64,000 bases of DNA from NCBI RefSeq assembly GCF_000717915.1, contig NZ_JOCX01000006.1, forward strand, positions 186,001 to 250,000. The letters are read 5' to 3'. The translations under genes were made by a program, and so were the position numbers. The notes below the pieces were generated by a model, which was not told the origin of the DNA, did not search any database, and saw only the letters and a list, made by a program, of their open reading frames with translations. The stretch comes from Streptomyces sp. NRRL S-244 (GTDB lineage: Bacteria; Actinomycetota; Actinomycetes; Streptomycetales; Streptomycetaceae). This document shows, in pieces, positions 5,393-26,762 of this stretch. Within the stretch, counting starts at the first letter, position 1, and each line of letters opens with the position of its first letter.

Positions 5393-5430
5393 GAGTCAAC
5401 TCCTGAGGAATCATTGGATTGTTGCTCTGG

Positions 5431-5505
5431 TTGCCGACTGCGGGCTTGCCGGGTGCCGGCTTGCCGACTGCCGGCTTGCCGACTGCCGGCTTGCCGGGTG
5501 CCCGG
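5431..5505. repeat. five 15-bp tandem repeats between the paralogous hydrolases
   Basis: Five imperfect copies of TTGCCGACTGCCGGC lie head to tail between the stop of one hydrolase gene and the start of the other. Each contains the palindrome GCCGGC or a one-base variant, so the RNA could form alternative small hairpins. The length is a multiple of three and one minus-strand frame reads Gly-Lys-Pro-Ala repeats, but no gene uses it. Confidence 0.85.
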
Positions 5506-5506
5506 C

Positions 5507-6682
5507 TCATCCGCACAGGGCCTTGTCCACGGCGTCCTTCACGTGCTCCGCGGCCGAATCGTCCGTTGGGATGGTCGTGACCGTGACGTTGGCTGCGCGA
5601 CCGTCGTCGGTGACACCGCCCCGGGTCTCGTACCCCGCGATGTCGCCGCCGTGGCCCCAGTAGACGCCTCCGCACGACAGCGGCCTGCTCGTGAGCCCCA
5701 GCCCGTAGCGGAGGCCGGAGGTACCGGCGGGGACCGTCGTGCGCATCTGGGCGAGCTGGGCCGCCGGGAGGAGGCGGCCGGCGAGGAGTTCGGTGAAGAA
5801 GCGGTTGAGGTCGGAGTTGGTGGAGATCAACTGGCCTGCCGCCCAGGCCCAGGAGGGGTCCATCTCCGTGAAGTCGCGCAGCGGTCCGTCCGCCGGGTTG
5901 CGGTGGTAGCCCTGGGGGTGCGGCTCTCGGATGGTCATCTCTCCGGGGGCGGGGAAGTAGGTGTGGCGCAGCCCGATGCGCTTGATGATGCGCCGGTCCA
6001 TCTCCTCGGCCAGGGGGCGGCCGGTGACCTTCTGCACGATCAGGCCGGCCAGGACGTAGTTGGTGTTGCTGTATCCCCACGTTTTCCCCGGCTCCGCGTC
6101 GGCCTTGTGCCGGAGGGCGATGTCGAGCAGCTCGCGGGGTTCGACGTACCGGTTCCTCATCTCGTCGTCGTCGATGTGGACGCCGTAGTCGGGGAGTCCG
6201 CTGGTGTGCTGGAGGAGCTGTCGGACGGTGATGTGGCGCCCGTCGATTCCCTCGCCGCGGACGAGACCGGGCAGGTAGGTGTCGACGGTGGCGTCGAGGC
6301 CGATCTTCCCTTCGCCGACCAGCTGCAGGACCACGACCGCCGTGAACGTCTTGGTGTTGCTGCCGATCCGCACCTGGCCGTCCCTGGGCACCTTCGAGCC
6401 GGTGGTCAGATCTCCGACTCCTGCGGTGTAGGTGCGGGTGCGGCCGTCACGGTCCTGGACGCTCGCCAGCGCGGCGGGCATCCCGTCGTCGCGCACCAGC
6501 CCGTTCAGGGCTCGCTGGACGGCGTCCGCGCCGGCGGCGGCGGAGACGGAGGGCGGCGCGAGGGCGCCCAGTGTCATGACGCCGATGGCCACCGCGACCG
6601 CGGCCGACACGGCCCGTCGCCGCCTCCCGCCGTGATGCTGCCGGGTCGGGGAAGGAAGGCCCTGCCGGGTCTGAGCTCGCAT
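5507..6682 (-). CDS. secreted serine hydrolase, class C beta-lactamase-like (family S12), paralogue
   Basis: 391 residues. The ATG at 6682 follows the same AGGAGTTGACTC leader as its paralogue at 4247-5392. It has a signal peptide of about 48 residues, slightly longer than its neighbour's because of a basic insert after residue 8. Catalytic motifs are SNTK (S108 and K111), YSN (Y204-N206) and HGG (H344-G346). The two proteins align over almost their whole length, differing mostly in the signal region and near residues 165-185. The genes are collinear with a 114-bp repeat-bearing gap, so they may be co-transcribed. It diverges from the sensor kinase gene starting at 6824. Confidence 0.88.
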   Translation of the reverse strand: MRAQTRQGLPSPTRQHHGGRRRRAVSAAVAVAIGVMTLGALAPPSVSAAAGADAVQRALNGLVRDDGMPAALASVQDRDGRTRTYTAGVGDLTTGSKVPRDGQVRIGSNTKTFTAVVVLQLVGEGKIGLDATVDTYLPGLVRGEGIDGRHITVRQLLQHTSGLPDYGVHIDDDEMRNRYVEPRELLDIALRHKADAEPGKTWGYSNTNYVLAGLIVQKVTGRPLAEEMDRRIIKRIGLRHTYFPAPGEMTIREPHPQGYHRNPADGPLRDFTEMDPSWAWAAGQLISTNSDLNRFFTELLAGRLLPAAQLAQMRTTVPAGTSGLRYGLGLTSRPLSCGGVYWGHGGDIAGYETRGGVTDDGRAANVTVTTIPTDDSAAEHVKDAVDKALCG

Positions 6683-11800: not shown

Positions 11801-12456
11801 GTGGACTTGCCAGCTCCGGGCTCGCCGGTGATCAGGAGATGCCGGTGTCGGACCATCGCCTTCGGCACCGGCAGTTGGGTATCGGTGCCCTGAGTGCCGT
11901 CGTGCCGGGAAGTGCTCATGGGCGGGAGGGCATCAGGCCCCTCGCTCGACGACATTTCCTTACGGGTCGAACTGTCCCCCACTACGTGGGGTATTCGGAT
12001 GCTCTGCCTCACGTACACGGCGGACAACGGAGGTTCGGCAACGCCCAGCATGTCGTAGGGCAGCCGTTCCACCGCCTTGGCCTGGGCTTCCAATAAGTTG
12101 CGCACCATGAGTGTCGGGAGCGGCAGTTCGGTCCACGAAGACAGGCTGGGCGCCTGTGCCTGCTTGGCCGCGTGTGCGGCGCGGTCCATGGCCTCCTTGG
12201 CTCGAGTCCAGATCGGCATGACGTCGGAGGAGTCACGCCCCAGGGCCACGGCGAAGGACCGGATGACCTCAGGCTTCACCATCCTCGTGGCGTTGCAGAC
12301 GCCGTAGACGACGTTCTTGTGGGCGATCTCCGCCCGCACCACGGCGTTGAGGCTCTCATAGCCGACGTCCGTCACAGCCTCCCGGAACCATGCAGCCAGT
12401 TCTTCAAGTTCCGGATAGCGCTGCTGATCACCTTTCGGTGGACGGCCCCCGACCAT
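8851..12456 (-). CDS. NACHT-type STAND NTPase with N-terminal HTH and C-terminal helical repeats
   Basis: 1201 residues. The ATG at 12456 follows GGGGGAG. Residues about 15-90 look like an Xre-type helix-turn-helix (an ELAAWFREAV helix, then RAEIAHKNVVYGVCNATR). The NACHT core has Walker A GEPGAGKST (211-219) and Walker B WMVLVDGLDEVAD (298-310), which includes the extra acidic residues typical of NACHT. The remainder (about 560-1180) is alpha-helical and Ala/Leu/Glu-rich, as in HEAT/TPR-like ligand-sensing repeats. STAND NTPases are switch proteins that oligomerise on ligand binding, and bacterial NACHT proteins include anti-phage defence proteins. No separate toxic effector domain is visible, so a signalling or transcriptional role is equally possible. 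Confidence 0.82.
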   Translation of the reverse strand: MVGGRPPKGDQQRYPELEELAAWFREAVTDVGYESLNAVVRAEIAHKNVVYGVCNATRMVKPEVIRSFAVALGRDSSDVMPIWTRAKEAMDRAAHAAKQAQAPSLSSWTELPLPTLMVRNLLEAQAKAVERLPYDMLGVAEPPLSAVYVRQSIRIPHVVGDSSTRKEMSSSEGPDALPPMSTSRHDGTQGTDTQLPVPKAMVRHRHLLITGEPGAGKSTLSSHLAWSLSRVWLRQDTSLEAPVDEPLLPVKVAAHTLLGETGSWSAVLSRAVSRSLGHSLIADPDPSLFRGRVQGARWMVLVDGLDEVADRESRAEVIRMIALHTRTDGDYRFVITSRPLPDGELAPLRGPSMGEYTMEPFGAKELKDFADKWFAAQYEDKASARAAAERFLGEVKDSRLQELAHNPLLATIAAVNATVDPTIPLPTSRLSLYQRFFGHLLTRRAGVRAELRRRYAPEPERLALHLWLDEQKRRLLGALGQHRLEGEESLLEAALAWVREHGRAHLVLEGWQTDVSDFLQGTGVLVQEQRDYRFLHHSFAEFFAARSYAEDIGPDFPDLESWILRAFHEDKRTLAMFVLCLWAEREECEADRIAERLRTGAVGGHERPLLAGLLLAEGVAFGEDNRRLLVERLENIGCCARDESDQEEAFAALGALGAEPGVLDRLERMARNELLGGGKRLLAVEAFGRCGPADLTEELLGEVLSGVSLWLGKAARVAVALGDRARELVRRRAWELATEPGRNSRRLSHAAQALAHMEMPEDAVRVARKVLEDASAGSHSIQRAAEAWLTAMPEAAQELTEIVMSWPPTDQYSPTAVGKALEKSGDIQAAARIALTLLRSDATSLHATDWAVSLWAKAQGQDARSEIRTAFERSGADAGHYLWVPARLQQELVGLGEVEGALGWADEAQAGGRWGTFGAGRAVKIWLEAGGLPAVGRVMERISRGRSLTPPDRPVVAEALLDSGALDEAGEVAELALRTPFCSRAEYEQATRVLLKAQGQGAHGATRLLEIWDGTPALADSSDWLQGVLQVLPYQEDDLEATGILARRLVALPAGDSDDVLRGLHGLLSLEGRDAVPYVIDTALTHPWVTWHQMRDLAAEFAALGERESALRLWKHALGFPDPPLGTELSLLIDMQAAGLDAEAAAHIEKLIAHPETRAPRRLRLRQLLAWLKAAGALPDDASVPEQRGAAAPRRATGGAS

Positions 12457-12972: not shown

Positions 12973-14343
12973 TCAGACCCGCAGCGGGGGTGTGTTGCCC
13001 GGCGTGTCGTGCCAGGCCGCGCGGTGTTTCCGGGCGGCCGTCTCGGCGCGGCGGATTGCTGACGGTGGCACGGGTACGCGGCACAGGGCGTCGAGGGTCT
13101 CCAGCATGCGGCCGGCGAACCGCAGGCCGAGCGGGGTGAGCCGGCCGGAGTCCAGGATCGCGGCCGTCGCCTCCCGGGCTCCGGAGCGCCAGCGGGCGAA
13201 GCGGGTGTGCGCGACGGCCCGCAGGTCCGGGTCCGGCTCCGCGTCCCCCCGCCTGCCCCAGAACTGGGCGACCGCCAGATGCGCGTACGCCCCGTGGAAG
13301 AGGCCGACCAGCGGGCGGGGGTCGGGACGCCACGGCGCGTAGTACCGCTCCTCGGGGCCCTGCCGTCCCTCCTCGAACAGGTCGAAGAGGTGCAGCAGCG
13401 CCGCGAACTTGTTGTGCTGCATCTCGTGCGCCATCGTCACCGCGAGGACGGTGCCGCTCGACGGCAGCGACAGTGCCATGGAGCCGAAGGTCTCCGCACT
13501 GCTGCCACTGACGATGCCCCGGGCCGGGGCGCGCAAGGGCACCAGGAGCCAGGGCCCCGCGGCCAGTTCCGCGTACGTCTCCGGATGGCCGGCGCGCAGC
13601 AGCCCGCAGGCCGCCTTCGCCCCCGCCGCCCAGCGCTGCGCCTCGTCGGCGTCGGGGTGGACCGCCCGCCCCGCGGCCGCCGGGAAGGACGGCGGGTCGA
13701 GGGTGTCGAGCACGAGGGTGGCGCCGGTGTCGAAGGTGGCCAGCAGCCGCGCCCCCCGCCAGCGGTCGCCGCTGGCGTACGGATCGCCGGCCACCGGCAC
13801 CGGGGACTGCGGGACCGGGGCGTCCGGAATGGCGATCGAGGCCCGTCCATCGGTCCCCACGCGCAGCTCGACCTGGTCTCCTGGGCGGGCGCCGGGGAAG
13901 TGGGCCCGGCCGAGCGTGGGCAGCGGCGCCCAGGAACCCGGCCCCGTCAGCGGCCATCGCGCGCGGGCGGGCACCCGGGCCCGCACCGCCGCCGCGGCGG
14001 CGAGCGCCGTGAGCCGGTGCACCGGGGCATCGGCTCCCTCGGGCCGCCGCGTCAGGCGGGCGAGCAGGTCGACGAGCGCGGGACCCGCCGCCGGGTGCGT
14101 CAGGACGGCCGTCGCGGCGTCGGGGTCCGCCCGGTGGACCGTCTCCAGCAGCTCCCAGGCGCTCTCGGCCCCCTGGGCCACCGCGCCCCCGGCCTCCCGG
14201 GCGGCGGTCCTGATCGCATACAGGCAGGCGAGACGACGGCTGTGCTCGGCGCGGGCGAGCAGGCGCATCGCCTCTGCCCCGCCGCCGCCCGCGGCGATCC
14301 CGTCGAACAGTTCGCCGGGCAGACGGTGCGGCGACGGTGTCAT
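12973..14343 (-). CDS. HExxH-motif RiPP-associated enzyme of an FxSxx locus
   Basis: 456 residues. The ATG at 14343 overlaps the FxsB stop by ATGA. The defining motif is HEMQH (306-310) within a helix, as in the HExxH family found beside FxsB radical SAM enzymes. Members were first described only by this metal-binding motif and are now annotated as probable iron/2-oxoglutarate-dependent peptide beta-hydroxylases rather than proteases (established annotation; not provable from this sequence). The N-terminal 130 residues are Ala/Arg-rich helices. Its likely substrate is the FxsA-type peptide at 15828, before or after cyclophane formation (inference). Confidence 0.8.
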   Translation of the reverse strand: MTPSPHRLPGELFDGIAAGGGGAEAMRLLARAEHSRRLACLYAIRTAAREAGGAVAQGAESAWELLETVHRADPDAATAVLTHPAAGPALVDLLARLTRRPEGADAPVHRLTALAAAAAVRARVPARARWPLTGPGSWAPLPTLGRAHFPGARPGDQVELRVGTDGRASIAIPDAPVPQSPVPVAGDPYASGDRWRGARLLATFDTGATLVLDTLDPPSFPAAAGRAVHPDADEAQRWAAGAKAACGLLRAGHPETYAELAAGPWLLVPLRAPARGIVSGSSAETFGSMALSLPSSGTVLAVTMAHEMQHNKFAALLHLFDLFEEGRQGPEERYYAPWRPDPRPLVGLFHGAYAHLAVAQFWGRRGDAEPDPDLRAVAHTRFARWRSGAREATAAILDSGRLTPLGLRFAGRMLETLDALCRVPVPPSAIRRAETAARKHRAAWHDTPGNTPPLRV

Positions 14344-15587
14344 ACCGCCTCCGCCGGCACCGTACGGGCGGAGGTCAGGCCCGTCACGTCCCCGGCCAGC
14401 CGCTCCCGTACCCGCCCGATGAGCGCCGTCAGGTCGGCGCAGTACACGCTCGGGTTGGCGAAACCGGTGTCGTGGCGATAGCGGTTCGCGTAATGGCCGC
14501 CGCCGCACACGGTGTGCAGCGGGCAGGCGCGGCATGCGGCGCACAGCCCGTCGGCGCCCCACTGGCGGGCCGCGATCCCGGGATGGCGCAGCAGCTCGTC
14601 CAAGGAGTGGCGCCACACGTCGAGCCCGGTGCGCGCCGCTCCCTGGTACACGGTGCGCAGGGTGTCGTCCTGGGCGAGGGAGCCGTCGGTCTCCACCACC
14701 GCGTAGCGCACCGGGGCGAGCCCGAGGGCCTCCGTCTGCGGGGCGGCTCCGAGCAGGAGCGCCATGAGATCGTCGAGGAGGCGGACGTGGGTCTCGCGCA
14801 CCGGGGCGTCGTACCAGCGCTCGAAGACGGACCACAGCCAGTTCGCGTACGGGGTCCGGCGGCCGGCGGGATCCACGCCGGGCGGCGGAGTGTGCCAATT
14901 GCCCAGCGGCAGCAGGAAGTCGACGGCGGGCGGGCGGTGGACGAGCAGTTCCTCGTAGGTCCGCACGGGGTCGTTGCGCAGGTCGATCGTGCACAGCAGC
15001 GCGGCGAACAGCGGGCGGTGGCGGTCGGTGTCGAGCAGGCGCAGAGCGGCCTGGACCCGGGCGTGGCTGCCGCGGCCGTCGGCGCTCCGGCGGTGCCGGT
15101 CGTGGGCGGCGCGCCCGCCGTCGGTACTCACCCCGATCCGGATGCCCAACTCCCCGCAGAGGTCGAGTCGTTCCTCGGTCAGCCGCACGCCGTTGGTCTG
15201 CAGGGCCAGGTGGAGCCGCACACCCGCGCCGACCGTGGCGCGCAGCACCCCGGCGGTGCGGGCGAGCGCCTCGTCACCGGCGAGAAGGGGTTCACCGCCG
15301 TGCAGGACGACGCCCGCCTCCGTCAGTCCGTGCGCGGCCAGGTGCTCGGCGATCCGCTCGGCCGTACGCGTGACGGTGTCCGGCGCCATCGCGCGCGGCT
15401 GTGTACGCCAACTCTGGTCGAGCGAGCGGTACATGTAGCAGTAGTCACAGGCCAGGTCGCAGCGGCTGTGCACCTTGAGGACGAACGAGTGGAACGGGTA
15501 CGGAACCCAGCCGGCCGCCTCACGTGTCAGCACGTCGGCGGCGCCCGGCCAGGGGAGCCGGCCCGGGCGCAGTAACGGTCGACTCAT
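14340..15587 (-). CDS. fxsB: FxsB family radical SAM/SPASM RiPP-modifying enzyme
   Basis: 415 residues, with the ATG at 15587 after GGGGGGAG. The radical SAM cluster site is C43-x3-C47-x2-C50 in SRCDLACDYCY. A SPASM-type Cys-rich region is near the C-terminus (C349, C352, C355, C361 and C383), expected to hold auxiliary Fe-S clusters. Other core elements include the VVLHGGEPLL strand and NGV after strand 3. FxsB is one of the enzyme families (with XyeB and GrrM) reported to install three-residue cyclophane cross-links at an aromatic residue of the precursor. The expected substrate is the divergent precursor gene at 15828. The overlap with the HExxH enzyme gene indicates coordinated maturation. 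Confidence 0.93.
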   Translation of the reverse strand: MSRPLLRPGRLPWPGAADVLTREAAGWVPYPFHSFVLKVHSRCDLACDYCYMYRSLDQSWRTQPRAMAPDTVTRTAERIAEHLAAHGLTEAGVVLHGGEPLLAGDEALARTAGVLRATVGAGVRLHLALQTNGVRLTEERLDLCGELGIRIGVSTDGGRAAHDRHRRSADGRGSHARVQAALRLLDTDRHRPLFAALLCTIDLRNDPVRTYEELLVHRPPAVDFLLPLGNWHTPPPGVDPAGRRTPYANWLWSVFERWYDAPVRETHVRLLDDLMALLLGAAPQTEALGLAPVRYAVVETDGSLAQDDTLRTVYQGAARTGLDVWRHSLDELLRHPGIAARQWGADGLCAACRACPLHTVCGGGHYANRYRHDTGFANPSVYCADLTALIGRVRERLAGDVTGLTSARTVPAEAV

Positions 15588-15827
15588 CCGCTCCCCCCCG
15601 AAAGCGTGCGCCGATCGGTCGCGCAGCGGTACGTGCGCACTCCGTTCGTCCAGTATTCGGTTGCGGTGCGCCGACCGTCAACATCACGAACGAGCCAACG
15701 GGTGGCACGGGGGGCGCAGTTGGAGCAGTTCCGGCGTGTTCGGCGGTTGCCTCCGGGGCGAGTGGCGGCGCTACCCTGGGAAGGACAACGGTTCGCCGGT
15801 CCGCAGCGACCTCCGGGAGTGGACATC
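15588..15827. promoter_or_regulatory. divergent control region between fxsB and fxsA
   Basis: This 240-bp gap separates the minus-strand modifying enzymes from the plus-strand precursor. It must hold both promoters and has no open frame with a credible start. It is slightly less GC-rich near 15650-15690 (GTATTCGGTTG, ATCACGAACG). No clear -35/-10 pair or palindrome was found by eye. Confidence 0.4.
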
Positions 15828-16022
15828 ATGACCGATGCCGATGCCGAGGGCGCCGACCCGGCCCCTGCGGGACCCGACGCGGAGTCCGTCGTCCTGGACA
15901 TCTCCGGGCTCTCGCCGGAGGAAGTAGCCGCCCTCCCCGACTCGGTACTGGGTGCTCTTCTGCGCCGGGTGCACGACACGGCGGGCGATCCCTTCGTCAC
16001 CGGGTTCTCGGAGAGCATGTGA
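15828..16022 (+). CDS. fxsA: FxSxx-COOH-type RiPP precursor with non-canonical FSESM tail
   Basis: 64 residues from the ATG at 15828, after GGGAG. The middle region (VVLDISGLSPEEVAAL, then LLRRVHDTA) matches the leader pattern of FxSxx-COOH proteins. Its location, divergent from fxsB, fits the family. The C-terminus is FVTGFSESM: Phe is at position -5 as required, but position -3 is Glu where the family has Ser. I checked the codons (TTC TCG GAG AGC ATG TGA). If FxsB acts here, the cross-link would join Phe60 to the beta carbon of Glu62 rather than Ser (inference). The cellular role of Fxs peptides is not established. Confidence 0.85.
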   Translation: MTDADAEGADPAPAGPDAESVVLDISGLSPEEVAALPDSVLGALLRRVHDTAGDPFVTGFSESM

Positions 16023-16197
16023 CCGCTCGCCACCCGGTGCGGCCGACCGCGCACCGGGGCTTCCGGGCCCTGCGGACGCCACGGGCGTCCGACGGGGAAC
16101 AAGACGGGGAACAAGGGGGGACGGCCCCTATACTTGCATCCCTGCATGCCCGTTATGTCCACCGTCATTCGCTGTCACCGCGCCGAGCGGAGAGGTC

Positions 16198-19100
16198 ATG
16201 CCAGACGCCAACCCCCAGCGCCACGCGGGTTCGTTCGCCGTCTTCTACACCACGTCCGAGAACCTCGGGCTGAGCACCACCCTGCGCAACGCGGCGGACA
16301 TCCTCGCCGAGGGCAACCGCAGTGTGCTGCTCGTCGACGGCCGCCCCGGTGCATCGGGGGACGGGGCCGTGGTGCCCGAGCCGGACGCCGGGCAGGTCGC
16401 CGCCGTGGGGCGCGCCGCCCCGCGCGAACTCACCGCGCTCTTCGACGACCCCGTCGCGGCACGCTACGACCACGTCCTGATCGAGGCGCCCGTACCGGCG
16501 GCACCCGGCGACGAGGCACCCGGCAGGCTGGTGGAGTTCGCCGACGCGCTCGTGATCTGCTTCGCCCTCACGGCCTGGTCCATCGACGGCGCCGCCGCCC
16601 TCGCCGAGGAGCTCTCCGGCCGCCGCGCCGACCGGCCCGTACGGCTGCTCACCCTCGGGCTCAAGAGCGACATCGGGGTGCACGACCGGCTGCGCGAGGG
16701 GCGCGAGCGCGTGCGCCGCAAGTTCTCGGCGCTCGCCCTGGCCCGCGGCGTGGGGGAATACCCCTTCCTGGAGATCCCGTACAACCCCCTCTACATGGAC
16801 AGCCGCAGCCTCGCCGTCGAGGCCGAGGACGCGGGCAGCGTCGTGGGCCTGCGCCCCTCCTACGCGCAACTCGCCGACTGGCTGCGCGCCCGCCGCGAGG
16901 CCCGGCTCACCGACGCCACCGTCGTCCACTCCGGGCGGCACGTCGCCTGGGCGGCCTGGCTGCGGGACCGGCTCGGCGAACGAGGCGTCCGCACCGAACT
17001 GCGCAGGGTCGACACCTACACGGGAGAGCGTCCCGAGACCGGCACGGCCCTGCTCTTCCTGTCACCGGGCGACGCCGACGACGCCCTCCTCGCCCAGATC
17101 GGCGCGCTCTCCCACACCGACGTGCGCATCGTCCTGGTCGACGAGCCCTTCGCGAACGCCGAGGCCGCGCACCACGAGCGCATCGACCTGCGCGACGTCA
17201 CCGAGGACGAGGCGCTGCGGATCCTGTACTCCGGCCTCGGCCTGGGCCCCGGGCGGCCCCGCGAGTCCGCCACCGGCGCCCGCTTCCCGCGGCTGCCGGA
17301 GATCACCAACGTCGCCACGCGCAGGGGCGGCTTCACCGGCCGCGACGACCTGCTCACCTCCCTCGACGAGAAACTGCGGGAGGCCGGCCAGGGCGGCGCG
17401 GCCCTGGTGCTGCACGGCCCCAGCGGCTGGGGCAAGAGCGAGACCGCCCGCGAGCTGTGCCATCGCCACGGCCCCGGGTACGACGTGGTGTGGTGGGTGC
17501 GCTCCTGGGACCCGCAGCGCCTGCGCAGGGGCCTGATCCGGCTCGCAGGACGCCTCGGGACGGCCGAGGGCCGGCTCGGAGCCGTAGCCGCCGAAGGGGA
17601 CATCTCCCCGCTCCTGAACCGCCTCTCGCGCCCCGACACCGAAAACAGCTGGCTGATCGTCTACGACGGGGCAACGGACCCCGCCGAACTGAACGGGCTG
17701 CTCCCGATCCCGCACGAGCGGGGCCATGTGCTGATCACCAGCCGCGTCTCCCCCGCGCAGGACGAGCCCGGGGACACGCGCCCGCCGTACCTGACGTCCT
17801 GCCCCATGCGGGCCATGACCCAGGCCGAGAGCTTCGACCTGCTGAGCGAACGGCTGCCGGAGCTCACCGCCGACCAGGCCCAACAGGTCGCCGGCATCGT
17901 CGACTTCATCCCGCTTCCCCTCCAGCTGGCCGCCCGCTGCCTCGCCGAGCGGGCCGCCTCCCACCGCCGTGAGGACCACATGACCCCGGACGCGGCGGCC
18001 CGCGCGGCCGTCGCGGACCTCCTCGCCGAGTACCTGGCCAGCAAGACCGAGCTGCTCGGCGAGAGCGCGACCGGAGCCGTGTCCTCCCTCGCCGTCATGG
18101 TGCACGTCGCCCGGCGGTTCGCCCGGTTCACCCCGGGCGCCGCCGCCTGGCGCACCGAGCGCCCCGCCGCCGACGCACTGGACTGGCTGCTTCAAGCCGC
18201 CTCCCTGCTCACCGGGCGCGGCATGGGCCTGGAGCTGCTCCGCTCGCGCCGCATCCTGTCCGAACTGGCCCGCGACGACTCCTCCGGACCGCTGCCCCCC
18301 GAAGGCGACGGCAGCGTCCGTCACCCCGACCAGGTCCAGCTGCCCGACGAGCACATGGTGAGCGTCGCCCTCTGGGCACTCGCCCAAGTCGGCCTGCTCG
18401 ACGTCGAGTTCGACCGCAAGGACCAGCCCCTCACCCAGCACCACGCGCTGCGCGACCTGATCCGCGACGGCATGGACGCACGGGCCCGGGAGCGCATCGA
18501 GTCCGTCCTGCGCGGCGTCCTGGCCGAGTACGTACGACAGGACGAGGACCTGCCCCCCGACTGGGCGCGCGAGGTGTACTCGCTCAGGCTGTGGGAGGAC
18601 GACCGGCCCCGCGTGCGCCGCTCACTGCTCCGGCACCTCCAGGCGCTCGGTGCACGCGCCGAGAGCACCGACCTCTCACGCCTCCTCGACATCGCCGACA
18701 GGGCCCGCGAAGCGTGGTGGGCCGACGGCGACGAGCCCACGCCCGAGTACCTGCGCCTGCTCAACCTCACCGCCCGTGCCCACCGCCTCGCCGGTGCGTA
18801 CGACACGTCCCGCGCGCTCTCCCGGGAGGCCCTGCGCGGCCACCGCAGGCTCCTCGGCCTCGTCCACCCCCGCACCCTGCTCTCGGCGGACTCGCACGCC
18901 GCGACCCTGCGGGCCCTCGGCCGGTTCCAGGACGCGTTGCTGGAGCTCAGGCCCTCCGTGGAGGGCCTGACCCTGCTGCTCGGACGGCAGCACCCGGCCA
19001 CCATCCAGGTCGAGCACAACCTGGCGCTCAACGAGGCGCTCACGGGGCGCGTCGCCGCCGCCCTCGGCCGGGTCCAGGAGCGCTTCCGCTACCAGCAGGC

Positions 19101-19884
19101 CGTCAAGGGCAAGGCCGACCCGGCCGCCTGGGGCGAGGCGGACCTGCTCGCCTACCTGTACCGGGCGATGGGGCGTGACGGCGAAGCCCGGGACCTGCTG
19201 CGGCAGCGGCTGCGCCGGCACGGCGACGTCTGGGACGGGGCGCGGCTGAGGACGGAGGTCGGCCTCGCCGTCAGCGAGCGCCGCCTCGCCGACGGCTTCC
19301 CCGCCGCCAAGGACCCCCGTTACGGGTACGAGATGGCCCACGAGCGCGATCTGCGCGCCTTGAAGCTGTACGTCAGCCGCTTCGGCGCCGACCGGATCGA
19401 CACCCTGCGCTGCCAGTTCAGCTACGCGGCCGACCTGCACGCCCTCGGCAAGGCGGACGAGGCGGAGCTCCAGGCGCGGCAGTGCGGTACCTCGCTGGCG
19501 GAACGGTTCGGCGTGACGCACCCCTACACGGCGCTCAGCGACGTCCGCCACGGCGTCTACCTGCGGGCGACGGGCGACCTGGTGTCCGCGGAGGTGATCG
19601 GCCGCCACTCCCTCGCCCGGCTCGCCCTCAAGCTCGGTCAGGCGCACCCGTGGGTCGCCGCCGCCGAGAACTCCCTCGCCGCCACCCTCGCCGAGGCGGG
19701 GCATGCGGAGGAAGCCGCCGAACTGGCAGGAAGCGCCCTGACCCGGCTCCGTGACCTGGGTGTCGCCCACCGCCCGGACGGTCGGCGCGTGAAGGCGCAC
19801 CATGCCCGCCTGACCGCGTCGGGCACCTCGCGCCCGGTCCCGCAGTCGGGCTTCGACATCGATCTGGAGCTGCCGGGACTGTAG
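16198..19884 (+). CDS. fxsT: FxsT-like multidomain regulator: ParA-like, TIR-like, NB-ARC and TPR
   Basis: 1228 residues; the ATG at 16198 follows GGAGAGG. Domains in order: a ParA/MinD-like fold (1-235) starting FYTTSENLGLSTTL, where the P-loop lysines are missing although LLVDGRPG persists; a TIR-like domain (about 241-347, opening VVHSGRHVAWAAWLRDRL and including ALLFLSPGD); an NB-ARC NTPase (about 360-650) with intact Walker A GPSGWGKSE (G407, K413, S414), Walker B SWLIVYDG and sensor HVLITSR; and a TPR array (about 850-1200). This matches the tetratricopeptide protein named FxsT in FxSxx systems. The likely role is a STAND switch that reads the Fxs peptide or another ligand and signals through the TIR-like part (inference). 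It follows fxsA by 175 bp on the same strand. Confidence 0.85.
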   Translation: MPDANPQRHAGSFAVFYTTSENLGLSTTLRNAADILAEGNRSVLLVDGRPGASGDGAVVPEPDAGQVAAVGRAAPRELTALFDDPVAARYDHVLIEAPVPAAPGDEAPGRLVEFADALVICFALTAWSIDGAAALAEELSGRRADRPVRLLTLGLKSDIGVHDRLREGRERVRRKFSALALARGVGEYPFLEIPYNPLYMDSRSLAVEAEDAGSVVGLRPSYAQLADWLRARREARLTDATVVHSGRHVAWAAWLRDRLGERGVRTELRRVDTYTGERPETGTALLFLSPGDADDALLAQIGALSHTDVRIVLVDEPFANAEAAHHERIDLRDVTEDEALRILYSGLGLGPGRPRESATGARFPRLPEITNVATRRGGFTGRDDLLTSLDEKLREAGQGGAALVLHGPSGWGKSETARELCHRHGPGYDVVWWVRSWDPQRLRRGLIRLAGRLGTAEGRLGAVAAEGDISPLLNRLSRPDTENSWLIVYDGATDPAELNGLLPIPHERGHVLITSRVSPAQDEPGDTRPPYLTSCPMRAMTQAESFDLLSERLPELTADQAQQVAGIVDFIPLPLQLAARCLAERAASHRREDHMTPDAAARAAVADLLAEYLASKTELLGESATGAVSSLAVMVHVARRFARFTPGAAAWRTERPAADALDWLLQAASLLTGRGMGLELLRSRRILSELARDDSSGPLPPEGDGSVRHPDQVQLPDEHMVSVALWALAQVGLLDVEFDRKDQPLTQHHALRDLIRDGMDARARERIESVLRGVLAEYVRQDEDLPPDWAREVYSLRLWEDDRPRVRRSLLRHLQALGARAESTDLSRLLDIADRAREAWWADGDEPTPEYLRLLNLTARAHRLAGAYDTSRALSREALRGHRRLLGLVHPRTLLSADSHAATLRALGRFQDALLELRPSVEGLTLLLGRQHPATIQVEHNLALNEALTGRVAAALGRVQERFRYQQAVKGKADPAAWGEADLLAYLYRAMGRDGEARDLLRQRLRRHGDVWDGARLRTEVGLAVSERRLADGFPAAKDPRYGYEMAHERDLRALKLYVSRFGADRIDTLRCQFSYAADLHALGKADEAELQARQCGTSLAERFGVTHPYTALSDVRHGVYLRATGDLVSAEVIGRHSLARLALKLGQAHPWVAAAENSLAATLAEAGHAEEAAELAGSALTRLRDLGVAHRPDGRRVKAHHARLTASGTSRPVPQSGFDIDLELPGL

Positions 19885-19948
19885 GACTTCGAAGGGACCT
19901 GTAGGAACCTGGAGGGACCCGCAGGGACCTCATCCACCGAAAGGCGAC

Positions 19949-20971
19949 GTGCACGTGGCAGCCCCCGCACCGCATGGCACCCAGACGCTGACGGAGCACC
20001 ACTGGGCTCCCGAACGGCTCGGCCGGATAACCTCGTTGTGCGAGGCGTCGGTCGCCTCGACGCCCGGGATCAGGTCTCTGTCCCACTTCGGCAACGGCAT
20101 CCTCGACTTCGTCGTCTGCCGCGCCGGCCGGCGCCCCCTCGGCGCCGTGACCGGCGACCCCGGCGACGAACGCGACGAGGAGTCGCTGCCCGGCAGCCGA
20201 CTGCTGCTCTGCGCCCAGGACGTCGGCGTGCTCTTGCAGCCGCTCGGCACGGGAGAGCTGATGCGCACCGTCGTCGCGAACGGGGAGGGCTCCCTGTGGG
20301 GCGGGCGCGTCAAGCCCGGCGAGTACCTGGCCGCGGTCGCCGACACGGGCGACGGCGTCGACGCCATGGACACCACCATGAACGGTCTGGTCACCCGGAT
20401 CCGTACCGAGGTGCACCGGCTGTCCGACGAGCTGCCCGGCGGAGACCCGACGGCCAAGCCCGGTCTCTCCTCCGTCGACGGCGGACGAACTCCGCTGCGC
20501 GTCGACTTCGGCACGGCCGCCACGCCGGAGCCGGCCTACGAGGACCGGCTGCGCGCCCTGTGGCTCGGCCATGTGAACACCACCGACCTGCAGTACGCCG
20601 CCTACTACCGCGACTGGACCCTGGTGTGCGCGGGCGACGTCTTCGAATCGGACGACCTCGGACCGAAGTTCCTGAGCGTCAGCGTCCGCTCCCGGCGCAG
20701 CGCCTACCGCGAGCTCTCCAGGAGCCTGCGCGGCCATCTGATACGTCTCGCCGACGCGCTGGACCTCGTCGCCCCGGCGCAGGCGGGCAGTCCGGCCGTG
20801 GAGCGACTGGTCCTGGACGTGCAGGAGGGTGCGATCTACCTCGTCTGGACCTCGTCCCGTGAGTTCCTCGTCGGTGTCACCCTCGACCAGACCCAGGTCG
20901 CCAACGCCGACGCGCAGTTGCAGCGGCTCGCGGGCGCGGTACGGGGGCTCACGACACCACCGCCGCGCTGA
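19949..20971 (+). CDS. protein of unknown function downstream of fxsT
   Basis: 340 residues from the GTG at 19949; a second GTG at 19955 is better spaced from AAAGG and would shorten it by two residues. No signal peptide or membrane helix. I do not recognise a family. The C-terminal 60 residues (around VLDVQEGAIYLVWT and then VGVTLDQTQVANADAQLQRL) resemble the alternating strand/helix of roadblock-type regulatory domains, but this is only an impression. It follows fxsT by 64 bp, so it probably belongs to the same transcript. Its last 23 bp overlap the convergent ATPase gene. Confidence 0.65.
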   Translation: MHVAAPAPHGTQTLTEHHWAPERLGRITSLCEASVASTPGIRSLSHFGNGILDFVVCRAGRRPLGAVTGDPGDERDEESLPGSRLLLCAQDVGVLLQPLGTGELMRTVVANGEGSLWGGRVKPGEYLAAVADTGDGVDAMDTTMNGLVTRIRTEVHRLSDELPGGDPTAKPGLSSVDGGRTPLRVDFGTAATPEPAYEDRLRALWLGHVNTTDLQYAAYYRDWTLVCAGDVFESDDLGPKFLSVSVRSRRSAYRELSRSLRGHLIRLADALDLVAPAQAGSPAVERLVLDVQEGAIYLVWTSSREFLVGVTLDQTQVANADAQLQRLAGAVRGLTTPPPR

Positions 20972-23333
20972 GCGTGCCCCACACCTCCTCCGCGAGCACC
21001 TCGACCGTACGGGCCGCCGTCAGCGGGTGAGGGGGGCCCGGGTTGCCCAGCAGATGCACCGGAAGGACCTCGACCGCGGTCTCGTACTCCCGGCAGATCC
21101 GGCGCAGTTCGCCCCACTGGCGCTCGGTCGGTGCACCGGGCACGGCGGCGCGGTGCCAAGCCGCCACCGAGCCGCGGAAGTTCTCGGTCAGCGCGCGGAC
21201 CAGGGTGGCGCAGCCGAGCACGCCGAGCTCCGCCGACGTCGCCGCCGCGGTACGCCGTTTCACGGCCGTGCCGGCGACGCGCCGGGTGACCGTGTCGAGC
21301 ACCGCGAGCGCCTCCTGGAACCGGCGCCGTACCGGTCCCGGCAGATCCAGGGCGGCCGGCTCCGGCTCGGGACCGCTCTCGACGAGCACCGACGCCGGCG
21401 CTCCCGGCGACGATGTGCTCCGCTCGCCGGCGGCCGGCAGGGCACGCGGCCGGGGCTCCGGCGTCCACGAGGCCATCGCCCGGCGCAGTTCGGCGAGTTC
21501 GGTGGTCTGCTGCTCCAGGTCGCGGCGCATCCGCTCGCCGAGCTGGACCAGACCGTCCTCACGGCGCCCGTCCGCGAGCCGCCCGTCCAGCTTCCGCAGC
21601 GCCTCGTCCACGGTCTCCGCGAAGCCGCCCTGCCGGTACACCAGCGGCCGGGATCCGATCGAGCGCCCGAGACGGTCCTGCATGGCCTGCGAGACATGGC
21701 CGTTGACCACGAGCAGCACCTCGCACCGCCCCGGACGCACCGCACTGCGCAGGCTGTGCACCTGGGCGGCGATCCGCTCGGCGTCATCGGCGACGAGGAC
21801 GGAGCGGGTGAGGATCACCGCGAGGTAGGAGTTCGGCACGGCAGAGAGCCAGTGCAGCACCTCCTCCCGGCCTCCCGGCGGGGCCGACAGCCGGGCCGGG
21901 ACCGGATCGCGGGAGGCGATCCGCCACTGACCGATGTCCAGGGCCTTGCGCACGTCCGCCTCGACCTGACGCCGGGCGACCCCCTCGTGCAGATCGCGCA
22001 CCGCCTGGAGCACCCTGGCGGCCGGCACATCCCGAACCGCGCCCCCGCCGCCTTCGAGCCGGTCCTTGTCCTCGACGAGCTGCCAGGCCTGGCGGCAGGT
22101 CTTGAGGACCTCGCGGGGCACCCCCTCCGTCAGCTCGTACAGCAGCCGCAGGGCCTCCGCGTCGAACGGGCCGGCGGACCCGTCGGGCGACGGGCCGGGG
22201 GGCGTGCCCGGGGAGGCGCCGGGGGGCGCGCCGCTCCCGCCCTGCCCGGCGTGGACGTACGCGGCGACCAGCTCGCCGGTGAGCCTCTCGTCGAATCCGC
22301 TCGGCCACAGCTGCACCAGCCGCTCGTGCACGCTCTGCCGGAGCTCCCCCAGCCCGCTCGGAGAGACGCAGAAGACCAGCAGGCCGCCGCGGCTCGCGTA
22401 GATGTTGACGAGCCGTTCGAAGGCGTCCATGAACGTACGCCGGTGCTCGTCGCGCCATTCGAGCACCTTCTCCAGGGAATCGATCAGGAGCGCGTACGGC
22501 TTGCCGACCCGGCCGTGCAGGACGGCCTGCACCGCCAGCGCGTCGAACACCCGGTCGATGCCGGCGGCGTCCTCGTGGCCGCCCTGCCCCGCCGCGGGCC
22601 CGATGGCCTCGGTGATGCCGCGCTCACGCAGCGGCTCGGCGGGCTCGCCGCCGTTCAGCCACTCCCACACCATCCTGTTGAACGACGGATCCTGGAGCAG
22701 CGCCAGCGCGGTGGCGAAGCGGCGGTGCTCGGTGACCTCGCCCAGCGTGCCGCGCAGGTCCGCGTGGATCACCTCGGGGTCGTAGCGGAGCGCCGACACC
22801 ACCTTGTCCGGGTCGAGACTGCCGCCCCGCAGCCCCGCCGCGATCTCGCCGAGCGCGCCCAGTCGTGAATCGCTGCCCTGGGTGTCGACGCGGTTGGCGG
22901 TCGCGTACGCGTAGTAGTTCCGGACCAGTTCCTCGAAGGCGCGCTTCCCCTGGGGCGTGTCACCGGGACCGCGTAACCGGTCCCGGTACATCCGCCCCAT
23001 GTCCTGCACCGGCTCGTCCATGATCCACATGGCCAGGGGGTCCGGCAGACCGCTCAGATCGGCGTACACCTTGCGCAGTGCGTGGCTCTTGCCCAGACCG
23101 AACTCACCCACCAGGGCGATCACCCTGCCGCGCCGGCCACCGGTCGGCCGGCTGCCGAGGTAGTCGTCGACCAGCCCCGTGAGCTCGGTGGTGGTCGGCG
23201 TCCCGATCGTCGCGTTGCCCGAGTCCGCCGCCTCGACCGGCACGTTTCCGAGGTCGGCCGATGGGCCGAGGCGCACGACCGGGCTCAGGGGGAAGGGGTT
23301 GCTGTGCCAGATGTCTCCACTGTCTGGGGCCAC
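20949..23333 (-). CDS. large P-loop ATPase of unknown function
   Basis: 794 residues. The start is the GTG at 23333, preceded by GAGGAGTGCCCGCC; the longer open frame upstream is antisense noise. Walker A is GEFGLGKS (76-83, K82) and a Walker B-like ALLIDSLE lies near 280-288, followed by a LLVFCVSPSG strand that could be sensor 1. This order fits an AAA/STAND-like ATPase. A Gly/Pro/Ser-rich linker lies around residues 355-385. The C-terminal half is helical with a coiled-coil-like segment (ERMRRDLEQQTTELAELRRAM). It is the third gene of a three-gene unit with 23402-24511 and 24508-25389, pointing toward the Fxs genes. Confidence 0.75.
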   Translation of the reverse strand: MAPDSGDIWHSNPFPLSPVVRLGPSADLGNVPVEAADSGNATIGTPTTTELTGLVDDYLGSRPTGGRRGRVIALVGEFGLGKSHALRKVYADLSGLPDPLAMWIMDEPVQDMGRMYRDRLRGPGDTPQGKRAFEELVRNYYAYATANRVDTQGSDSRLGALGEIAAGLRGGSLDPDKVVSALRYDPEVIHADLRGTLGEVTEHRRFATALALLQDPSFNRMVWEWLNGGEPAEPLRERGITEAIGPAAGQGGHEDAAGIDRVFDALAVQAVLHGRVGKPYALLIDSLEKVLEWRDEHRRTFMDAFERLVNIYASRGGLLVFCVSPSGLGELRQSVHERLVQLWPSGFDERLTGELVAAYVHAGQGGSGAPPGASPGTPPGPSPDGSAGPFDAEALRLLYELTEGVPREVLKTCRQAWQLVEDKDRLEGGGGAVRDVPAARVLQAVRDLHEGVARRQVEADVRKALDIGQWRIASRDPVPARLSAPPGGREEVLHWLSAVPNSYLAVILTRSVLVADDAERIAAQVHSLRSAVRPGRCEVLLVVNGHVSQAMQDRLGRSIGSRPLVYRQGGFAETVDEALRKLDGRLADGRREDGLVQLGERMRRDLEQQTTELAELRRAMASWTPEPRPRALPAAGERSTSSPGAPASVLVESGPEPEPAALDLPGPVRRRFQEALAVLDTVTRRVAGTAVKRRTAAATSAELGVLGCATLVRALTENFRGSVAAWHRAAVPGAPTERQWGELRRICREYETAVEVLPVHLLGNPGPPHPLTAARTVEVLAEEVWGTLSAAVVS

Positions 23334-23401
23334 GGCGGGCACTCCTCGTGTTTCCGATGACGGCGATCCGAGCGGCGGGCGGGTGGGGCGTGGGGGCGGA
23401 G

Positions 23402-24511
23402 TCAGGGGCTCGCCGGCGGGGCGGAGCTGTCGGGCGGGGAGTCGTCGGGCGCGGGGTCGTGGGGCGCGGGGTCGTCGGGCGGGGACTCGTCGGGTGGGGA
23501 GTCGTGGGCCAGCGCACCGAGCAGGTTCTCCCTGGCCTCGCGTCTGAGCCGTTCCGCGTGGTGGCTCAGCTCGTGCGCCGTGATCCGGACCGGCTCGCCC
23601 GCGCGTATCTGATGTTCGGCCGCGGCGTGGTAGACCATCCGCAGCTCCCGCACATCGGCGGGCTCCCACTCGGTCAGGAGCGCCGCGTCCGGGTCGGGGT
23701 GGCCCGAGCGGGCGGCCTGGCTGAACGTCACCCGGTCCTCCCCCTTCAGGCGGCCGAGTTCGAGGTGCGTGACCGCGGGATGCTTCACCACCTCCTTGAC
23801 CACCTCCTTGGCCCGGTCGGTCGCGTGGCTGATCTCGACGAAGAGGACGATCCGGCTCCGTGCGTGCTTCAGACACGTCAAGAGGAACTCGCTCCGCACG
23901 CCCGGGTCCTTCCAGGCGATGTGCGGCACGATGACGAAGAGCAGCGCGTCCTGCTGCTCCAGGAGCTCGCTGATCGCTTCGAACGCCTCGCCCGGTGGCC
24001 ATTTGGAGATGCCCGTGTCGACATGGGCGAGCTTCGTGCGCAGCTCGCCGACGACCTGCTTCACGATGCCGGCGTTGATGGCCGGAATGGTGGCGAACCG
24101 GCCGTTGTCGTCGAGGCTGATGACGTCGCCGATGTTGTCGTAGCCGGCCGTCATCGCGACGACCTGGTTCAGGGGCGGGTCCGGGTCCAGTCGTTCGATG
24201 TGCTTCTGCGCCTCGTGGACGCACCGGTGGATGAGGGTGGTCTTGCCCATGCCGATCGGGCCGGTCACCACCACCAGAGAGCCGTAGTTCACCCCGCTGT
24301 CGACCACGTCCGGGAGCCTCTCCAGCCACTTCCGGAAGGAGTCCACCTGCGCCTTGGCGTGATCGACGTCCACCCACTGCTCGCAGTGGCTCGTCTCGCT
24401 CCAGGGCACCAGCGGGTAGTCGACCCGGGGCGGGGACTCGACGTTGCGCAGGGCCTGCCTCTTCTTCGGTACGCGCACGCTGTACGGGTTGTGCTGCGGA
24501 GGCACCGTCAT
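23402..24511 (-). CDS. P-loop ATPase with Pro/Asp-rich tail
   Basis: 369 residues. The ATG at 24511 overlaps the stop of the upstream membrane-protein gene (ATGA), implying coupling. Walker A is GPIGMGKTT (84-92) after a SLVVV strand. ALLFVIVPHIAW and RIVLFVEISH are candidate Walker B and sensor strands. The fold looks like an AAA/ORC-type ATPase. The last 40 residues are a low-complexity Pro/Asp/Ser tail made by 15-bp repeats, probably disordered. With the second ATPase 68 bp downstream, it may form a heteromeric NTPase attached to the membrane protein (inference). Confidence 0.75.
   Translation of the reverse strand: MTVPPQHNPYSVRVPKKRQALRNVESPPRVDYPLVPWSETSHCEQWVDVDHAKAQVDSFRKWLERLPDVVDSGVNYGSLVVVTGPIGMGKTTLIHRCVHEAQKHIERLDPDPPLNQVVAMTAGYDNIGDVISLDDNGRFATIPAINAGIVKQVVGELRTKLAHVDTGISKWPPGEAFEAISELLEQQDALLFVIVPHIAWKDPGVRSEFLLTCLKHARSRIVLFVEISHATDRAKEVVKEVVKHPAVTHLELGRLKGEDRVTFSQAARSGHPDPDAALLTEWEPADVRELRMVYHAAAEHQIRAGEPVRITAHELSHHAERLRREARENLLGALAHDSPPDESPPDDPAPHDPAPDDSPPDSSAPPASP
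23426..23500. repeat. five 15-bp in-frame repeats encoding the acidic-proline tail
   Basis: Five copies of a unit like GTCGTCGGGCGCGGG lie inside the 3' end of the ATPase gene. On the coding strand each gives a five-residue unit of the type DDPAP or DESPP. Such in-frame repeats may vary in number between strains. Confidence 0.8.
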
Positions 24512-25389
24512 GCGGTCGCTCCCGGGGTCGTGCGAGCCAGGCGCTCGCGTGCGGTACGCCATCTCCAGTAGAACGTGCGTCTGTTGAGATCCGACACGGC
24601 GCTCAGCTTACGGTCCACGGACTGCCGTACCTCCTGTGCCCGCCGGGCGCGCGCATCGGTTCCGAGCCGCCGGTCGCCGCTGAACTCGGGCAGCGGCCGG
24701 GCCAGCGGCAGTTCATCTGCCAGCTGCCGGGCCCGCGTCCGCCGCGCGCCGGGGGCGGCGACCCGGGCGAGGGCCGCGCCCAGCGCCTCGTGCGCGGTCA
24801 GCACCGCCGCGTGGTCCGCCGCCGGATCGTCCTCGTAGTTCCTGAGGTATTCCCGGGCAGCCGCCCGGAAGGACGCCCTTCCGCTCTCCAACTGCTGTTT
24901 CAGCAGACGGCGTTCGGAGGAGACGCGCTCCCAGGCCTGCCCGCCGAGGGGGAGCAGGGCGCCCACCGCAAGGAGGGGGAGCGAGGTCAGGAAGGTCTCC
25001 CACCAGCCGCCCTCCCCCTTCTTCTCCTCGGCTCCGGCCCCCGGGGAGTCGGACGCGGCCCCCATCAGCGCCGAACAGGCCCGGGCGAAGTCGTCCTGAC
25101 GGCGCACGGACCACGCCTCCGGCGTCATGCGCCCGACGGAGGCCGTGGGCATGACGGAGTCCGTGGCCATGAGGGAGTCCGGGGCCGATGCCCCGGGCTG
25201 GAGGAGGCCCAGGCGTACGGCGGCCGTGACGAGCTCCGCCCGGCGCGAGGCGTCGAGGCAGTACACGAGCTGGACGTCGCGCTCCTTGGATCCGGCGGGC
25301 GCGGCGGACACCGGGGCGCCCGCCAGCAGCACGAGGACCGCGGCCGCGGTCCCGAGCCCTGCCCGGCCTGGACGCGTTCTCCGCCTCAT
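24508..25389 (-). CDS. exported membrane protein of unknown function
   Basis: 293 residues. The ATG at 25389 follows GGAGGG. An Arg-rich N-terminus and a hydrophobic core ending in SAAPA (about residues 1-31) form a signal peptide. An outside segment of about 100 residues with two cysteines follows, then a membrane helix (about 131-151, FLTSLPLLAVGALLPLGG) and a helical cytoplasmic domain rich in Arg, Ala and Glu. It heads a coupled unit with two P-loop ATPases, so it may be the membrane sensor or anchor for them (inference). No known family is recognised. Confidence 0.68.
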   Translation of the reverse strand: MRRRTRPGRAGLGTAAAVLVLLAGAPVSAAPAGSKERDVQLVYCLDASRRAELVTAAVRLGLLQPGASAPDSLMATDSVMPTASVGRMTPEAWSVRRQDDFARACSALMGAASDSPGAGAEEKKGEGGWWETFLTSLPLLAVGALLPLGGQAWERVSSERRLLKQQLESGRASFRAAAREYLRNYEDDPAADHAAVLTAHEALGAALARVAAPGARRTRARQLADELPLARPLPEFSGDRRLGTDARARRAQEVRQSVDRKLSAVSDLNRRTFYWRWRTARERLARTTPGATA

Positions 25390-25514: not shown

Positions 25515-26762
25515 TCAGGCGGGCGAGCGCCCCTTGGCCAGCGGCTCCTGCGCCACCCTCCCGGAGGGACGCTCCTCGGCCGCGCGGAGTTCCGGCCCGC
25601 CGCGGCGCCGCCACGGCCGCGGCGGATGGGCGAGCAGCACCTGCGACGTGCCGTGGAGCAGGTTGACGACCAGCACGGCGGGGCCGACGATCGAGACCGT
25701 GCCGGGGAAGTCGCGTTCCAGGGCGAGGGCGATGAGAACGGCCGTGATGCCGTTCTGCTGACCCAGTCCGAGCGCGATCCGGTCCCGCCGCTCCAGCCCC
25801 CGTACGAACAGCGGCATGACGCCCAGGGCGACCACCGCCTGCGCGCCGAACGCGGCCACGCCGAGGACCAGTCCGGGCAGCAGCGCCACGCCCTGGGCCA
25901 GGAACAGACCGAGTGCCAGGAACGCGGCCAGATAGGCCCCGGCGACGGCCCGTTCGACGACCTTGTCGAACGCCCCCGTACGGACGGCCAGACCGGCCAG
26001 CGCCACCGCGGGCATCAGCATGCCGGACGCGGCGAGCGCGAGCATCGCCACCACCAGTGCTCCCGTGAGGACCGCCTCGGCGCGCCGGCCCGGCGGCGTG
26101 CCCGCGAGCGCCGCGGCCGCCGCCCTCGAACCCGCGAACGCCCGCAGCGCCCTGCGTCCGCCCCACCACAGCAGCAGCACCCCGGCGAGCAGCGCGGCGT
26201 TGAGACCCAGGCCGCTCACGTAGCCGCCGGCCCCGCCGCCCGCGACGGCCGGTACGCCCTCGTGCCCCGCGGCCGTGTAGGCGTAGGCCGCGACGTACAG
26301 CGTCAGCAGCACCGTCATCGGGTCGTCGAACGAGGCCCACGCCGTGAGCAGCGACCGGGCGCGCGGCGACATGCGCTCGTCCTTGCCGAGCGCCGCGACG
26401 GACAGCGGATCGATCTGGGCCACCGCGATGCCCAGCACCAGGTACTCGGGCCGGTCGAACGTCAGCACCATCACGCCCGCGATGAGGGACGCCTTCAGGA
26501 CGACGCCGAGCGTCACGGCCGCCACCACGCCGGACAGGTCCGAGCGCAGGGCCCCGAGATCGATCGAGTACGTGGATCCGTACAGTCCGACGGCGAGCAG
26601 GAGCCCCGTGCCGTAGAGATAGCCGCCGCTGCCGACCAGCGCCGCCGGATCCGTGAACAGCCCGATGGTCACGCCGGCCACCAGCGCGCCGAGCCCGCCG
26701 ACCACGATTCCGGGGATCGATTCCGGCAGCCGCCAGGACCGGACACCTCCAGATCTCCTCAC
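25515..26762 (-). CDS. cation/proton antiporter-like membrane protein
   Basis: 415 residues from the GTG at 26762, which follows GGGGGAGAGG. About eleven hydrophobic segments are visible. The motif IDPLSVAALGKDER (about 118-131) resembles the acidic ion-binding region of monovalent cation:proton antiporters, and SFDDPMTVLLTLYVAAYAY (about 144-162) gives a second acidic pair within a helix. Both fit the CPA superfamily, although the sequence is more divergent than a standard NhaP. It probably exchanges Na+ or K+ for H+. The C-terminal 35 residues are a charged cytoplasmic tail. It is not tightly linked to its neighbours. Confidence 0.75.
   Translation of the reverse strand: MRRSGGVRSWRLPESIPGIVVGGLGALVAGVTIGLFTDPAALVGSGGYLYGTGLLLAVGLYGSTYSIDLGALRSDLSGVVAAVTLGVVLKASLIAGVMVLTFDRPEYLVLGIAVAQIDPLSVAALGKDERMSPRARSLLTAWASFDDPMTVLLTLYVAAYAYTAAGHEGVPAVAGGGAGGYVSGLGLNAALLAGVLLLWWGGRRALRAFAGSRAAAAALAGTPPGRRAEAVLTGALVVAMLALAASGMLMPAVALAGLAVRTGAFDKVVERAVAGAYLAAFLALGLFLAQGVALLPGLVLGVAAFGAQAVVALGVMPLFVRGLERRDRIALGLGQQNGITAVLIALALERDFPGTVSIVGPAVLVVNLLHGTSQVLLAHPPRPWRRRGGPELRAAEERPSGRVAQEPLAKGRSPA

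Follow-up and report, generated by a model that had tools for sequence, protein, structure and literature searches.

A nine-gene Fxs peptide locus of Streptomyces that may couple an NLR-like protein to a cation/proton antiporter through a tandem Roadblock protein

The window analysed here, a stretch of 64,000 nucleotides from Streptomyces sp. NRRL S-244 (contig NZ_JOCX01000006.1, positions 186,001 to 250,000), contains a locus of nine genes organised around an FxSxx-type peptide. Two peptide-modifying enzymes, the FxsA precursor and the FxsT protein are encoded together with a tandem Roadblock protein, two P-loop ATPases, an exported protein and a predicted CPA1-type cation/proton antiporter, and the set recurs in 22 distinct genomes. 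The best explanation of the whole, to which we assign a probability of about 0.4, is a peptide-coupled NLR-like system that would be linked through the Roadblock protein to an antiporter output.

Eight of these genes had been listed in the original prediction, made from the letters of the window alone, and gene calls and family models recovered all eight where it had placed them. Its HExxH enzyme, FxsB, precursor, FxsT, two ATPases and exported protein were retained, the protein that it had left unnamed is now a tandem Roadblock protein, and its end of the unit at 25389 had to be moved, since a ninth gene on the same strand, that of the antiporter, adds on. The HExxH and FxsB genes are read leftward and the precursor, FxsT and Roadblock genes rightward; the ATPase 2, ATPase 1 and exported-protein genes form an operon convergent on the rightward genes. 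The exported-protein and ATPase 1 genes share an ATGA overlap (24508–24511). The Roadblock and ATPase 2 genes overlap tail to tail, by 23 bases in the window and by 17–29 bases in 17 of 23 rows compared (15 of 21 genomes); in the remaining six rows they are 12–109 bases apart.

ATPase 1 of the window was aligned with 31 relatives, and this alignment was used to scan a one-genome-per-species collection. The scan gave 14 loci, with FxsT beside ATPase 1 in 12; L020 and L025 end at contig ends. Genome searches relied on ATPase 1, the Roadblock protein and the antiporter, and genes were mapped by tblastn with nine window queries (a neighbouring NACHT gene included), then with iterated profiles. Same-genome repeats were counted once (L018/L033/L080, L022/L034 and L020/L032/L081, recognised by DNA identity, or by genome handle for L080 and L032). 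ATPase 1 and/or ATPase 2 was then found in 22 distinct genomes, the window's included, with protein identities of about 26–95% (L071 by profile only). The recurrence with Fxs genes that the original prediction had suggested checking, for the genes at 19949, 20949, 23402 and 24508, was seen across these genomes, with gaps for the gene at 24508 and for FxsB. The nearest relative among the loci compared is L014, from Streptomyces flavotricini.

The Roadblock gene was present in 22/22 carrier genomes, FxsT in 21/21 (L025 ends at a contig end), the HExxH and FxsA genes each in 20/20 where the DNA extends, and the antiporter in 20/20; L080 adds a further copy at a contig end. Among the 20 carriers whose DNA reaches there, 19 have the antiporter gene upstream of the ATPase unit, on its strand. 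The 20th, L071, comes from another family and has the whole set in a different order, with a weak ATPase 1 (E=6e-4), a clear ATPase 2 (2e-86) and the antiporter gene away from the exported-protein gene, directly behind the Roadblock gene. Relative to L014, L015 and L034, the ratio of non-synonymous to synonymous substitutions (dN/dS) was below 1 (0.15–0.61) for eight genes (HExxH left out), as estimated by simple Nei-Gojobori counts on GC-rich DNA.

FxsB was detected in 161 of 200 family genomes (E<=1e-80), and among the matches listed its identity to the window protein exceeded 57% in carriers only (59–100%). Twenty further FxsB loci, chosen by ourselves and including two from the window's own genome, were taken as a control with about 9 kb on each side: none of the 20 contained a Roadblock gene, ATPase 1, ATPase 2 or the exported protein, and none the antiporter. 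Could a membrane/ATPase operon unrelated to the Fxs locus simply adjoin it by chance? The convergent orientation of the two halves, and a Roadblock-antiporter pair that can stand alone, would permit this. We rejected it as extremely improbable, because the gene set recurs in 22 distinct genomes and no ATPase carrier was found that lacked the Roadblock gene, nor one that lacked FxsT where sequence remained. The original prediction had named a wide occurrence of the ATPase unit without Fxs genes as the sign of such coincidence. This was not observed: ATPase 1 occurred in at least 5 of 200 family genomes, a lower bound because its search missed carriers G109 and G156, found by later profiles, and FxsT lay beside it in 5/5. 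The membrane protein and two ATPases are a genuine part of one class of Fxs loci.

Table 1. The nine genes of the locus, with positions in the window and the evidence for each.
Gene product	Position	Strand	Evidence
aKG-HExxH-type peptide beta-hydroxylase	12973..14343 (or ..14361)	-	TIGR04267 162 bits, E=1.1e-47; motif HEMQH
FxsB radical SAM/SPASM peptide maturase	14340..15587	-	TIGR04269 471.6 bits (cut-off 370); CxxxCxxC
FxsA-type precursor, 64 aa	15828..16022	+	TIGR04268 34.8 bits (cut-off 28); C-terminus DPFVTGFSESM
FxsT: degenerate MinD/ParA-like, TIR-like, NB-ARC, TPR	16198..19884	+	NF040586 582 bits (cut-off 300)
Tandem Roadblock/LC7 protein, 340 aa	19949..20971	+	
ATPase 2, STAND/AAA+-like	20949..23342	-	P-loop GEFGLGKSH, LLIDSLEKV, GVPR (alignment motifs)
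ATPase 1	23402..24511	-	P-loop GPIGMGKTT (alignment)
Exported/membrane-anchored protein	24508..25389	-	Hydropathy and alignment
CPA1-type cation/proton antiporter (predicted)	25515..26762	-	AQIDPLSV and FDDP motifs

The Roadblock fold was recognised from a model and an alignment with MglB for the first repeat, and from the order of helices and strands for the second; the VIA-align rows take in the first domain only. The antiporter had no Pfam match at E<=0.1, and the NhaP/NHE fold was found along its entire length, as in CPA1 antiporters. The hallmark of the CPA1 ion-binding helix is an ND motif. This motif is replaced here: 30/30 antiporter rows read FDDP, opposite the FNDP of PaNhaP in the alignment.

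Of 297 family genomes, 15 gave a match to the Roadblock protein, each time with FxsT adjacent (15/15). Five of these loci (L037–L041) showed no ATPase, L040 being a contig of 7.8 kb; the antiporter is present in L037, L038 and L040, where its gene directly follows the Roadblock gene, as in L071. The antiporter occurred in 14 of the 297 genomes, 13 of which also carry the Roadblock gene (Fisher p about 8e-20), the fourteenth (G063) being a fragment. Among genomes of the class, 16 of 296 matched the Roadblock profile, in 10 of 114 genera, and the 15 new loci contained FxsT in 11 cases, the antiporter in 7 and FxsB in 3 (L064, L066 and L071). A search for FxsT in 394 class genomes gave two matches at E<=1e-60; it scored two candidates per genome at a strict cut-off and is no measure of absence. 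The Roadblock protein and the antiporter are the wider-spread part, and the two ATPases and the exported protein occur in a subset. In L065, L068, L069, L070 and L076, the FxsT and Roadblock genes are followed by a long HExxH gene on the same strand (741–805 aa), and extra FxsT-like genes lie upstream in L065, L069, L070 and L076. In L075 the Roadblock gene alone was seen, the upstream side ending at a contig end; the profile match in L072–L075 corresponds mainly to the second Roadblock domain.

In L072–L074 the antiporter gene overlaps the Roadblock gene by 22 bases (called starts), possibly forming a two-gene regulatory module. These three genomes of one family share the neighbourhood, whose genes resemble those of the shikimate pathway, and the pair stands there without recognised Fxs genes. 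It could be an ordinary actinomycete module for housekeeping ion homeostasis or a developmental switch, with the Fxs genes as one regulatory input, comparable to the signalling of conservons, whose regulators include Roadblock proteins in Streptomyces (PMC13343842, in the text available). However, the pair is rare in the window's family (13/297 genomes), CvnA, CvnC and CvnD were not recognised in the locus, and a long flank is common to the window and L014 only, of 23 loci (some with little flank). Rarity and differing flanks suggest an accessory element, and we consider the housekeeping alternative possible but unlikely.

At the other end of the locus, FxsB and the precursor both passed the cut-offs of their FxSxx family models. 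The last five residues of the precursor, FSESM, do not spell a literal F-x-S-x-x, and near relatives end in HxESx or FSESx. Of the 20 carrier genomes in which a precursor is visible, 14 have an end of the form [DN][PL]FVTG[HF]xESx; L029, L030, L031, L035, L036 and L071 deviate. Two aromatic-x-x triplets, FVT and [HF]xE, are found in those 14 precursors. FxsB-type enzymes form three-residue cyclophanes out of aromatic-x-x triplets. According to the available part of PMC12636437, a related HExxH enzyme acts once the cyclophane is installed and hydroxylates Asp and His. With Pfam and NCBIfam, none of the nine genes was recognised as coding for an ABC exporter or a leader peptidase, weak P-loop matches of ATPase 1 aside, which fits an intracellular role for the peptide. 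The same result weighs against a toxin-type cluster of the ribosomally synthesized and post-translationally modified peptide (RiPP) class, in which the peptide would be the end product, with immunity or export provided by the antiporter, exported protein and ATPases. The complete maturation genes and the adjacent membrane proteins fit such a cluster; yet the antiporter fold is unlike a peptide exporter and FxsT would have no obvious place in it, so that we regard it as improbable.

Two loci, L030 and L031, represent an FxsB-less version. Their core peptide is distinct, and they keep the genes of the precursor, the HExxH enzyme, FxsT, the Roadblock protein, the two ATPases and the antiporter. 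Neither a radical SAM enzyme nor the exported protein was found at these loci, and their genomes (G139 and G158) gave no FxsB match. The idea that FxsB-less carriers have no second core aromatic was dropped, as it held for L030 (Q) and failed for L031 (H).

FxsT matched NF040586 above cut-off and is an AP-ATPase-TPR protein with a degenerate MinD/ParA-like domain, as in FxSxx systems; its TIR-like domain is a weak match (TIR_2, E=0.049). In the alignment, YTTSENLGLSTT occupies the P-loop position of the MinD-like domain of the window protein. The motif KGGxG[RK][ST] is absent from this domain in 20/20 carrier genomes with a readable N-terminus, L071 being checked only after the pattern had been noticed in the others, and fitting it. 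It is kept in 16 of 17 MinD-type FxsT proteins of loci where no ATPase was seen. The available literature text names no molecular target for MinD-type FxsT proteins. As for the ATPases, matches to Pfam families were below cut-off (AAA_16, E=1.1e-5, for ATPase 1; weak nSTAND5/AAA_16 for ATPase 2), and PDB profile searches with both gave mostly P-loop matches, with a few weak ones elsewhere. In the alignment, ATPase 1 lacks the acidic residue of the expected Walker B strand (FVIVPH). The exported protein has hydrophobic stretches at residues 12–30 and 132–150 and neither a Pfam nor a PDB profile match.

We propose that FxsB and the HExxH enzyme would modify the C-terminus of FxsA, where one or more cyclophanes (F-V-T and/or [H/F]-x-E) and beta-hydroxylation are predicted. 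The modified peptide would set or relieve the state of FxsT, a STAND protein of the AP-ATPase type whose MinD-like domain is dead and which also has a TIR-like domain. From FxsT the signal would pass to the tandem Roadblock protein, and on to the antiporter; the resulting change in ion or proton flux might arrest the cell or allow it to adapt. The two ATPases and the exported protein may be an add-on, nucleotide-driven and linked to the membrane, that possibly provides the switch lost by the MinD-like domain of FxsT. The more specific claim, that a tandem Roadblock adaptor lets a cyclophane-tuned bacterial NLR-like (STAND-TIR-TPR) protein control a Na+/H+-type antiporter, is tentative, and we would sooner expect it to be wrong than right. 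More generally, transmembrane ion balance may be a target of Fxs peptide systems. The antiporter is a concrete candidate output for FxsT and makes a "peptide plus NLR" picture testable, which matters because FxsB is so common in the family.

Several observations weigh against this coupling. The loss of the FxsT P-loop in carriers may reflect one or two ancestral events; L064 has lost the motif although no ATPases were seen there, and the "no ATPase" status of L040 and L067 rests on short contigs. FxsB is present in 18 of 20 carriers (absent in L030 and L031), and was recognised in only 3 of the 11 wider FxsT-Roadblock loci, some of which reach contig ends. The exported protein is present in 19 of 22 carriers, without a match in L030, L031 and L036; it is split into two frames in L035 and weakly matched in L071. 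L039 and L041 have FxsT and the Roadblock gene with no antiporter in the fetched DNA, as do several wider loci. A Ras-like GTPase, the usual Roadblock partner, was not recognised in the locus. The pair of L072–L074 (L072:10216–12203) has no recognised Fxs gene within 19.9 kb, and G139 and G158 hold, unlinked to their FxsB-less loci elsewhere in the genome, second copies of the antiporter (L077:9331–10596 and L078:9425–10699). The antiporter therefore need not answer to FxsT. These two orphans cluster with the antiporters of L024 and L028 (support 0.996), and several of their neighbour genes are common to the L024 and L028 locus flank on one side; the other flank, seen for L028 as L082, had no match. 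That a lost locus left them behind as relics is only half supported.

An ion flux could also be harmful by design, as in an abortive-infection-like defence in which the FxsT repeats would sense an invader and trigger the antiporter. Antiporters are tightly coupled, so that a leak is not their default, which counts against harmful flux. In a PADLOC scan of the eight genes other than that of the precursor, no protein was matched over most of its length; where there were matches at all, they were short P-loop or partial radical SAM hits. This result, and the occurrence of the Roadblock-antiporter pair in a neighbourhood common to L072–L074, count against defence. The patchy spread of the locus and two conflict-type neighbours, together with the STAND-TIR-TPR build of FxsT and its placement among conflict systems in the available text of Kaur 2020 (PMC7159879), lean towards the sensing or defence role suggested in the original prediction; the abortive-infection reading itself seems rather unlikely, slightly more so than the housekeeping alternative. 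One neighbour, at 1–3672, is a large gene truncated at the window edge, in which Pfam recognises iHD-CE (E 3e-73) and wHTH-HSP90_Na-associated (4e-40) domains. The other, at 8851–12456 beside the HExxH gene, encodes a NACHT/NPHP3-type STAND protein of about 1200 aa, without a match in L014–L061, many of which end at the HExxH gene. Between them (4247–6610) lie two adjacent genes with similar N-termini, the first matching the Pfam Beta-lactamase family.

The left half of the locus is the standalone FxSxx system of Kaur 2020 (PMC7159879), which places systems with an AP-ATPase and an inactive MinD/ParA-like domain among conflict systems. Common to both are a zincin-like/HExxH gene, a precursor, a radical SAM-SPASM enzyme, and an AP-ATPase-TPR protein whose MinD-like domain is dead. 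In contrast, the FxSxx section, in the text available, mentions neither a Roadblock protein nor an antiporter, exported protein or additional pair of ATPases, and the words roadblock, LC7 and antiporter do not occur in the accessible main text; the core peptide, [DN][PL]FVTG[HF]xESx in near relatives, also differs. The original prediction was right that its four extra genes are not standard FxSxx parts, as far as the only published FxSxx description found (Kaur 2020, open-licence PMC, available text) goes. None of FxSxx, antiporter, roadblock and radical SAM appears in the text of PMC8195603 (2021). The fused radical SAM/aKG-HExxH enzymes for cyclophane formation and beta-hydroxylation (Morishita 2024, as cited in the available part of PMC12636437) belong to the same enzyme families, whereas here two separate genes and another substrate motif are found. 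No vWA or MoxR gene was recognised among the nine (Pfam and NCBIfam; antiporter by Pfam only), which sets the locus apart from VMAP-ternary systems. Conservons (Cvn; PMC13343842, available text), from whose regulators Streptomyces Roadblock proteins are known, likewise use an MglB-type Roadblock protein as a signalling link. Unlike them, the locus has two Roadblock domains per chain, and no histidine kinase-like protein (CvnA), CvnC or Ras-like GTPase (CvnD) was recognised among its nine genes. A peptide-gated ion-flux response was not found described for STAND systems in the available literature text. Compared with the CPA1 Na+/H+ antiporters PaNhaP, SOS1 and NHE1, the present protein has FDDP instead of FNDP, and its gene is linked to Roadblock and FxsT genes. 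By itself, the Roadblock-antiporter pair would represent, to our knowledge, a new regulatory arrangement for CPA1-type transporters.

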